Shown: positions 47,908 through 50,098 of the stretch, piece by piece
Layout: every line of letters starts with the position of its first letter
How positions within the stretch are numbered: the first letter of the stretch is position 1
Assembly: GCF_000723185.1 (NCBI RefSeq)
Contig: NZ_CBTY010000009.1
Coordinates: 186,001 to 250,000 of the forward strand
Reading direction: 5' to 3'
Source: Candidatus Nitrosotenuis uzonensis
Lineage (GTDB): Archaea > Thermoproteota > Nitrososphaeria > Nitrososphaerales > Nitrosopumilaceae
DNA length: 64,000 nt
Notes under the pieces: generated by a model
Told to the model about the DNA's origin: nothing
The model's input: only the letters and a program-made list of their open reading frames with translations
Databases searched by the model: none
Made by a program: the position numbers and the translations under genes

Positions 47908-48429
47908 TTGGAATTAATTGTCACCTGTGCTAGGCATTTTGAAGGGGAGACAAGTAAAGAGATTGAGGGTTTTTTAAGGGAGCTTGGAGACAAATCTCCG
48001 GAAATAACGATAACAAAATTTTCAGGAATCATCACAGTAAAGACCACACTCTGCCACACCGATATAATTAAACACGTACAAAAAAAATTCGAGGAAGAAC
48101 CGTGGGCAATAAGATACACCATGAGAATAATACCAATGTTCCAAGTTGTAGAATGCGACATCAGCTCCATCGCAGATTCTGCAATATTTCAGGCACACAA
48201 AATGAAACCAGATGAGACATACAGAATTACAATAGAGAAAAGGGATTCAGACATTAAATCGTCTGAGATCATAACAAGCATAGCAGAAAAGCTGCCAAAC
48301 AGAGTCTCGCTTGAAAATTATGATTGGATTATTCTTATTCAGACGCTTGGCAATATGTGCGGCATTTCGCTGGTAAAAGACGAGGACGTTTTAAGCGTAG
48401 AACGCCTAAAGCGAGCCTCATTTGAATAA
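47908..48429 (+). CDS. THUMP-domain protein, Tan1-like
   Basis: 173 aa, TTG start. VTCARHFEGETSKEIEGFLR at the N-terminus and the THUMP core RITIEKRDSDIKSSEIITSI to ENYDWIILIQTLGNMCGISL match Tan1, the tRNA adaptor for ac4C12 formation in eukaryotes and its archaeal homologs. Converges with cgi121 (12 nt overlap) in a tRNA-modification neighbourhood. Confidence 0.85.
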   Translation: MELIVTCARHFEGETSKEIEGFLRELGDKSPEITITKFSGIITVKTTLCHTDIIKHVQKKFEEEPWAIRYTMRIIPMFQVVECDISSIADSAIFQAHKMKPDETYRITIEKRDSDIKSSEIITSIAEKLPNRVSLENYDWIILIQTLGNMCGISLVKDEDVLSVERLKRASFE

Positions 48430-48927
48430 AACTGCTGCCTTTTCCACCATCAAATCTTCGAGAGGAGAATCGGAAAGTACTGCAGAAAGATGTTTTTTTG
48501 ATATCCTGAATTGTTTTTTTAGATACGCGTGGTTTTTGCGAAAATCAGATTGTTTTTTTATGTATTTGGAGATAAAGAAGGACAAGTCTTTTGGAATTTC
48601 TCTCCCAATTGCAACAAGCATGAAATCGTTTTCTGACTCTATGTCAGATACCATCATTGCTTCAGATATCTGGGTAGTGCACGCAAAACGTAGCAAGATG
48701 TCGGTTTGGAGTTTTTTTGATAAAAGCAAGTCTTGTTTTTGCGCAAAGAGAGACAACGATATGATTTTTTTTGCATGTGTGAGGCTCAGAATACATTTTT
48801 GCGATATTCCTTCCAAGATCAAGTCAGGAAACCTTTCTCGAATAGAATTCAGAAAGCGATAATTCTGACCCTTTTTATGTATAATGTGAAACAACTGAAC
48901 AGAAAGACTCTCTGCTTTGAATTTCAA
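48418..48927 (-). CDS. KEOPS subunit Cgi121-like
   Basis: 169 aa, TTG start right after the TGA of the ubiquitin-like gene. The segment LQTDILLRFACTTQISEAM near 75-95 is the Cgi121 core. Cgi121 binds the tRNA 3' end in KEOPS, which makes t6A37. The Shine-Dalgarno GGAGGTG is formed by the Gly-Gly codons of the upstream gene. Confidence 0.8.
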   Translation of the reverse strand: MKFKAESLSVQLFHIIHKKGQNYRFLNSIRERFPDLILEGISQKCILSLTHAKKIISLSLFAQKQDLLLSKKLQTDILLRFACTTQISEAMMVSDIESENDFMLVAIGREIPKDLSFFISKYIKKQSDFRKNHAYLKKQFRISKKHLSAVLSDSPLEDLMVEKAAVLFK

Positions 48928-49188
48928 TCAGGCACCTCCATGGATTACTGGGATTATGCTCACAGTATCGTTTGTTTGTATCAATGTATTACGACCTTCA
49001 AGCGCCGAAGAATCAATTCCGTTTACTGCAACTAGGATATTTTTTGTGTCAAGATCGAGTGTGTTATTTGGCTTTATTGACAACAGATGTTCAAGTAGGT
49101 CACCTATGGTTATCGAATTAACATCAAGTATGATGCTTTCTGAATCAAACGATTTTCTTGCGCCGCCCAATAGTTTTATTGTAATCAA
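48928..49188 (-). CDS. MoaD/ThiS/SAMP-like ubiquitin-fold protein
   Basis: 86 aa beta-grasp protein with the C-terminus SIIPVIHGGA. VNGIDSSALEGRNTLIQTND to the end matches MoaD. Sulfur carriers and SAMP modifiers normally end in Gly-Gly; here an Ala follows, so trimming would be needed for thiocarboxylation. It lies between S17e and Cgi121, suggesting a tRNA thiolation or protein-tagging function rather than molybdopterin. Confidence 0.88.
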   Translation of the reverse strand: MITIKLLGGARKSFDSESIILDVNSITIGDLLEHLLSIKPNNTLDLDTKNILVAVNGIDSSALEGRNTLIQTNDTVSIIPVIHGGA

Positions 49189-49200
49189 ATCAGAATGCTA

Positions 49201-49614
49201 TCAATTGGATTCTGGAGCTTGGCTCTCCATGACAATTTCTTCCTGCTCAGAATCTATCTCTGATGTGTTTTCTTCCTCTACCTGCTCGGATGTCTGCTCT
49301 ACTTGGGCGGTTGTTTCTTCAATTTCTTCTGCCTGTTCTTCTCGTTCAGCTTCGGCACGTGCTTCCCTTTGTTGTTTTTGTGCCTTCGTTGCGGCCTCTA
49401 ATTTTATGTACTTTGTAATAAATCCGGCCATTTCATTTTTCAAGCCTTTTGAGCGAATAATTGCAATTTGATCCAAAATTTTTTTATTTTCTGTAAAATC
49501 TGTGGTAAACTCGTTCTTGTGTTTGTCAAGTACCTGCATTACAAGTCTTCTTATTCTATCCACTCGGTGGATTATTTGTGGGGGTATTTTATAGTTATCA
49601 CCTAACTTGCACAT
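49201..49614 (-). CDS. rps17e: 30S ribosomal protein S17e with long acidic tail
   Basis: 137 aa from ATG 49614; the longer frame to 49677 is not needed. EFTTDFTENKKILDQIAIIR and KGLKNEMAGFITKYIKLE are the S17e core. Normal S17e is about 60-70 aa; here a further 75 residues rich in Glu, Gln and Ala (EREEQAEEIEETTAQVEQTS) are added. Leads the operon with the ubiquitin-like gene 12 nt later. Confidence 0.88.
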   Translation of the reverse strand: MCKLGDNYKIPPQIIHRVDRIRRLVMQVLDKHKNEFTTDFTENKKILDQIAIIRSKGLKNEMAGFITKYIKLEAATKAQKQQREARAEAEREEQAEEIEETTAQVEQTSEQVEEENTSEIDSEQEEIVMESQAPESN

Positions 49615-49687
49615 CTGATGATGTGAGAAAATACATACATGAATTGCTGCAAAATGTTTGAATTTACCAGTAAGCAATACTTTGGTA

Positions 49688-50098
49688 ATGCAGTTTTCCA
49701 GTCAGAATCTAAAAGAAATTCTCAATACAACAAATGAAAGAGACCTGTACATTGTAGGCCACATGTACATTGAGAATATGCTCGATAGAATTTTAGAGAC
49801 AAAATTTAGAATTCCATCAAAAGCGCTTGACAGCACGCTGTTTACCACCAATTTGAAGATGGATATTTTGGAAGAAGCAGGTTTGATCAAAGGCAGAGTG
49901 AAAAAGAATGTAGAGTTGTTATTCAGAATCAGAAATAGATACGCGCATAAGTTGGCCCCAAACGAGCAGCGCATATGCAATTACATAAGGGAGCTCGATT
50001 TGCTTGGCGTTACAGTCAATACAAGTAAAAAATATGAAAAGTATAGAATATGCGTCATACGCACAGTTTCTGCTCTAAATAGAATATTGACAAGCTGA
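49688..50098 (+). CDS. MltR/HEPN-like protein
   Basis: 136 aa from ATG 49688. All-helical: RDLYIVGHMYIENMLDRILE, the GLIKGRV turn and LLFRIRNRYAHKL. The pattern is that of MltR-like/HEPN helical proteins, and RNRYAH fits the R-x4-6-H motif (RNxxxH) of HEPN ribonucleases. No partner antitoxin (MNT) is adjacent. Divergent from S17e. Confidence 0.7.
   Translation: MQFSSQNLKEILNTTNERDLYIVGHMYIENMLDRILETKFRIPSKALDSTLFTTNLKMDILEEAGLIKGRVKKNVELLFRIRNRYAHKLAPNEQRICNYIRELDLLGVTVNTSKKYEKYRICVIRTVSALNRILTS

Follow-up and report, generated by a model that had tools for sequence, protein, structure and literature searches.

A Urm1-like ubiquitin-like protein gene apparently re-split from Cgi121 just after Gly-Gly in a conserved archaeal S17e operon

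Organization of the locus

In the window, by which we mean the whole 64,000-nt stretch of Candidatus Nitrosotenuis uzonensis DNA that was analysed, ribosomal protein S17e, a ubiquitin-like protein (Ubl) and the KEOPS subunit Cgi121 are encoded by consecutive genes on the minus strand, and a THUMP gene converges on them from the plus strand. The features of the locus are as follows.

49585-49593, minus strand: TATA box TATAAAATA of the S17e–Ubl–Cgi121 operon, ~22 nt 5' of the S17e GTG; TATA-like and kept in the genus and the family
49201-49563, minus strand: ribosomal protein S17e, 120 aa; GTG start, corrected by conservation; Pfam PF00833, E=7e-16
48928-49188, minus strand: Urm1/SAMP-like ubiquitin-like protein (Ubl, β-grasp), 86 aa; TTG start; ends PVIHGGA, then TGA; PF02597/PF09138
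48931-48942, minus strand: HGGA C-terminus of the Ubl (CAT GGA GGT GCC); HGG corresponds to the invariant columns H83, G84 and G85
48933-48939, minus strand: GGAGGTG, a possible Shine–Dalgarno sequence for Cgi121, 5 nt 5' of its TTG and overlapping the Gly-Gly codons
48928-48930, minus strand: TGA between Ubl and Cgi121, which breaks the probable ancestral fusion; the two are fused in G016 and in nearly the whole family
48418-48927, minus strand: KEOPS subunit Cgi121, 169 aa; TTG start directly 3' of the Ubl TGA; NCBIfam NF011465, E=1.8e-25
47908-48429, plus strand: THUMP-domain protein (Tan1-like), convergent; PF02926, E=3.9e-7; 12-nt overlap with Cgi121

The S17e stop at 49201 is separated from the Ubl gene by a 12-nt gap, TAGCATTCTGAT, and Cgi121 follows the Ubl with no gap. 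A sequence-only reading of this DNA had described this packing and placed a Tan1-like THUMP gene on the opposite strand, and the coordinates agree on both counts. The same reading began S17e at 49614, a start that we reject because it lies upstream of the conserved TATA box; the extra N-terminal stretch contains the box and is unconserved in relatives, whose frames are conserved only from the GTG/ATG at 49563. The GTG at 49563 is therefore most likely the true start, and the position of the TATA box suggests that the S17e–Ubl–Cgi121 transcript is leaderless or has a short leader. The C-terminal tail of S17e (49201-49350) is long, acidic and Glu-rich. A divergent gene at 49658-50098 encodes an RNxxxH motif (RNRYAH) like that of HEPN RNases, its Pfam matches being weak and sub-threshold only (DUF4145, HepT).

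Profile searches matched the Ubl to ThiS/Urm1 families of Pfam with E-values of 9e-10 and 2e-4. The Pfam CGI-121 match of the downstream product falls slightly under the Pfam cut-off and its match to NF011465 lies above the cut-off of that profile. Profile and fold both identify this product as Cgi121, the fold being taken from a model of a fused homologue that matches KEOPS Cgi121 structures in Foldseek.

Conservation of the operon and of a Ubl–Cgi121 fusion

We searched 250 Nitrosopumilaceae genomes and found the Ubl in 224. In 218 of these 224 the Ubl-bearing reading frame measures 189-419 aa, and in 217 it is intact, the exception being G082, where it is interrupted; the resulting figure of 217/224 fused is judged by frame length and tallied over several searches. 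Both the Ubl and the Cgi121 domain were verified in a single frame at 103/103 non-duplicate loci. Taken together, the frame lengths and the domain content indicate that a Ubl–Cgi121 fusion encoded by one ORF is the normal state of the family.

S17e lies beside the Ubl, on its upstream side, in 98 of the 103 non-duplicate fused family loci, and the THUMP gene is present in 102 of them, so that the S17e–Ubl–Cgi121–THUMP arrangement is far beyond chance. The gene order is therefore not a peculiarity of this genome, as the tree of loci described below also indicates. In the remaining families of the order, Ubl and Cgi121 lie side by side as distinct genes, mostly still next to S17e, and the stand-alone Ubls end exactly in HGG in 10/16 cases and otherwise in HGG followed by 1-9 residues. 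Among more distant members of the phylum, S17e is upstream in 3/7 loci checked and Cgi121 is downstream in two others. The locus is thus a conserved S17e–Urm1–Cgi121 operon of Nitrososphaerota. The sequence-only reading had tied the ribosome, KEOPS and a sulfur or tagging carrier together, and as a gene association this linkage holds across the family and related families.

The 3' ends of Cgi121 and THUMP overlap by 9 or 12 nt in 96/111 loci, a conserved convergent overlap. Contig JADFJJ010000046.1 (L106), labelled as a Proteobacteria MAG, bears this thaumarchaeal locus and is likely to be mislabelled or to come from a contaminated bin.

Origin and recurrence of the split

The four proteins were used to build a quick tree from the loci themselves, which is not a species tree. 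It places a single fusion branch at the base of Nitrosopumilaceae (SH-aLRT 100), and its well-supported branches force two later splits, one in the window's genome and one in G009. The locus most closely related to that of the window, G016, is fused (branch support 98). In the window, a TGA stands one codon after the Gly-Gly (GG-Ala-TGA) and is followed by TTG, with the frame kept across the TGA; because the TGA divides the two domains, they do not form a single polypeptide here. In G009, the Ubl ends HGGNK, its stop overlaps the ATG of Cgi121 (ATGA) and the two genes lie in different frames where they meet. In G243, which belongs to another genus, the Ubl ends HGGGKNKRKL and Cgi121 continues in another frame; this break consists of one extra A in a homopolymer run and could be a sequencing error. 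Clear frame breaks number four, and three of them lie no more than a few codons past the Gly-Gly, an outcome with a probability of ~5e-5 under uniform placement, although this figure is post hoc in that the range of positions was picked after seeing the data. These comparisons indicate that the fusion in the window was secondarily broken and that the fusions of two further relatives came apart at this junction in independent events.

Other apparent junction splits were rejected. The frames of G217 and G073 run off contig ends. In G082 other sequence interrupts the gene inside the Ubl (L203) and in G231 a frameshift lies inside the Ubl (L202), each possibly an assembly fault.

The sequence-only reading was right about the conserved linkage but missed that the two ORFs represent a secondarily split fusion. 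Because they appear to do so, the terminal Ala of the Ubl is most simply a remnant of the former linker and no special tail; it would nevertheless have to be trimmed before activation, as that reading had proposed. Split ORFs can equal the fusion functionally only if the fusion is cut, and a split right after the Gly-Gly suggests that cleavage at this point is also the usual fate of the fused protein.

The HGG junction

The HGG is kept in 103/103 fused loci. The residue that follows it is Ser in 66 and Ala in 22 (88/103), and the linker beyond varies. In the window the HGG is followed by one residue, and in relatives it is followed by Cgi121. An AlphaFold2 model of the fused relative L079 contains two confident domains, with residues 82-85 (IHGG) forming the only stretch with pLDDT<50. 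Because the HGG is invariant yet predicted to be disordered, the simplest interpretation is that it is retained for outside partners, namely an E1 and a protease. The coding sequence of the junction does not appear to be kept as an internal ribosome-binding site, since all 16 possible Gly-Gly codon pairs occur among the fused loci. A conserved internal Shine–Dalgarno sequence or start for Cgi121 in the fused genes was likewise rejected, there being no bias towards GGAGGT (16/103).

An alternative is that fused species keep the Ubl on Cgi121 permanently, where it would recruit E1/NcsA to KEOPS-bound tRNA or regulate KEOPS. The HGG would then serve only a minority of cut molecules or some other contact, and the split in the window would mean that the tether is dispensable. 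That the fusion has been kept in ~97% of the family genomes with a Ubl implies that co-translation is favoured, and regulation of KEOPS by the Ubl was proposed in 2010 (PMC2948915). However, the splits recur at the junction, an invariant motif in a linker that is predicted to be disordered is difficult to reconcile with a permanent domain, and the Gly of a fused protein is inaccessible as a C-terminus for thiocarboxylation, as has been argued for Ubl–MoaE (PMC4443979). We regard a permanently attached Ubl as unlikely, though deserving of serious attention.

The TGA in the window

We also considered that the TGA might be an assembly or sequencing error and that the genome truly has the usual fusion. 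The fused state of G016 and the count of just three such splits in 224 genomes are what an error would predict. The break, however, falls exactly one codon past the Gly-Gly and is directly followed by a start codon with the SD-like GGAGGTG at 5 nt, and two other genomes are broken at the same junction. Moreover, the Ubl and Cgi121 halves in the window are each complete, and their differences from G016 are distributed over the codon positions as in constrained genes, in patterns that resemble those of fused pairs. In our judgement an error is improbable. Dating the split by dN/dS was abandoned because dS is saturated, so that these patterns indicate that both halves were constrained over the divergence and do not speak to selection after the split.

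Readthrough of the TGA, which would still yield the full fusion alongside free Ubl, would be helped by the maintained frame. We consider it very improbable given that neither G009 nor G243 keeps the frame across its break and that the SD-like sequence and TTG favour re-initiation, and we know of no recoding signal for this group.

Identity of the Ubl and its candidate partners

The nearest solved-structure relatives of the Ubl, by both sequence profile and fold, are Urm1 and SAMP1. AlphaFold2 predicts a β-grasp fold with a pLDDT of 91, for which the best Foldseek matches are SAMP1, Urm1 and MoaD, and the Sulfolobus solfataricus Urm1 structure 4wwm matches the Ubl by sequence as well as by fold. 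Despite matches to ThiS/MoaD-family profiles, we give almost no credence to the Ubl being a MoaD subunit for molybdopterin synthase only, an outcome on which the sequence-only reading would have fallen, given that Urm1/SAMP1 are closest to it in both sequence and fold and that MoaE (PF02391) was detected in 0/25 family genomes searched (the window's and 24 others) as against 12/16 genomes outside the family. Failure to detect MoaE in the family also makes a classical molybdopterin (MoaD) role unlikely.

Genes for the machinery that a Urm1-type carrier could use are present. One E1 (ThiF) was detected in the genome (G000:C9:381349; L001:1174-2505), and this protein has an N-terminal ubiquitin-like domain of its own, with AGG-Ser at the end of that domain. 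Two JAMM-family proteins with the HSHP...S..D motif are encoded in this genome, at G000:C9:98547 and G000:C8:141489, and JAMM proteins occur in 242/250 family genomes. An NcsA-type tRNA thiolase (TIGR00269) is present in this genome and was found in 20/25 family genomes searched.

A proposed Gly-Gly-extended precursor

We think it probable that the Ubl represents the archaeal Urm1 and is produced as a precursor extended beyond its Gly-Gly, which would be freed by JAMM, activated by E1 and used to deliver sulfur to tRNA and/or to tag proteins. In the Nitrosopumilaceae ancestor, a Urm1-like Ubl and Cgi121 became one ORF joined through ...IHGG-[S/A]; in the Ca. Nitrosotenuis genome studied here, a stop one residue after the Gly-Gly re-split this ORF, with Cgi121 starting at the next codon. 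The cleavage of the Ubl, its activation and its substrates are what we infer, along the following lines. The Ubl would be synthesized with an extension past the Gly-Gly, consisting of Cgi121 in most relatives and of one alanine here. A JAMM metalloprotease would cut after the second Gly, and the freed glycine would be adenylated and thiocarboxylated by the single Ubl–ThiF E1. The carrier would then pass sulfur to NcsA-type tRNA thiolation and/or be attached to proteins, and Cgi121 would act independently in KEOPS (t6A).

There is strong precedent for such cleavage. HvJAMM1 cuts linear SAMP1–MoaE fusions after the C-terminal Gly both in vitro and in vivo and thereby renders them active (PMC4443979), MoaX is cut between Gly82 and Ser83 and requires this cut (PMC4326299), and SAMP precursors are cleaved by CsJAMM (PMC6043591). 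Several points count against the precursor model. The linker is also simply the best-tolerated site for a break in a two-domain protein, JAMM is near-universal in the family and hence not discriminating, and sulfur might be carried instead by the second Ubl, the one fused to the E1. The possibility that the window's TGA is a sequencing error must still be reckoned with, and the break in G243 consists of a homopolymer indel. When expressed in yeast, Sulfolobus Urm1 becomes conjugated to protein yet fails to support tRNA thiolation (PMC12645042), which counts against the tRNA branch of the model.

A family-wide version, in which one product of the S17e operon is cut by JAMM after the HGG to give equal amounts of carrier and KEOPS subunit, has in our estimate slightly less than an even chance of being correct. 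If it is, U34 thiolation or protein tagging would be tied to t6A synthesis and ribosome supply, and naturally re-split genes such as the one in the window, broken at the cut site, would show that it is the separate products alone that count.

Comparison with known systems

The Ubl–Cgi121 fusion in Thaumarchaeota, its S17 linkage and a Ubl–E1 fusion were reported in 2010 (Makarova & Koonin, PMC2948915), and since then the Ubl–Cgi121 fusion has connected ubiquitin-like carriers with t6A synthesis on grounds of guilt by association. The genes described here are orthologous and belong to the same operon and family. Whereas the two domains were fused in all genomes then available, they are separate ORFs in the window, with a stop after GG-Ala, and the fusion can now be traced to the root of a single family, the other families being unfused. 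The re-split gene, paralleled independently in two other genomes at these codons, amounts to a natural experiment on the cleavable-precursor question.

Sulfolobus also has a Urm1-type β-grasp Ubl linked to S17e (PMC2948915, PMC4569737), but the neighbourhood described in Sulfolobales is without Cgi121. In Mycobacterium MoaX (MoaD–MoaE, PMC4326299) and in SAMP1–MoaE, the substrate of HvJAMM1 (PMC4443979), a Ubl-GG is likewise fused to a partner enzyme, and activity needs a cut after the second Gly. The partner here is instead KEOPS Cgi121, in a family where MoaE was not detected, and the cut is a predicted one. Eukaryotic ubiquitin–ribosomal protein fusions are another instance in which a precursor extended past Gly-Gly is linked to the translation machinery; in the present case, by contrast, the ribosomal gene is adjacent and unfused, and the fused partner is Cgi121. 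The Cgi121 of Methanocaldococcus is known to bind the tRNA CCA and Bud32 (PMC7718258).

In the literature searched, coverage of which was partial, we found no report of split alleles of the Ubl or of its fusion to a phosphoribosyltransferase. Such a fusion occurs outside the family in G046 (L067:1468-2325) and G339 (L206:889-1821), where the same Ubl is joined via HGG-T/S to a phosphoribosyltransferase, as called by a Pfam match run for L067 and judged by similar sequence for L206. The two loci come from two distant families, and in both the phosphoribosyltransferase part sits between the Ubl and a separate downstream Cgi121. Because the same Ubl is joined elsewhere through its HGG to a different enzyme, its fusion partner appears to be exchangeable, which fits a precursor role.
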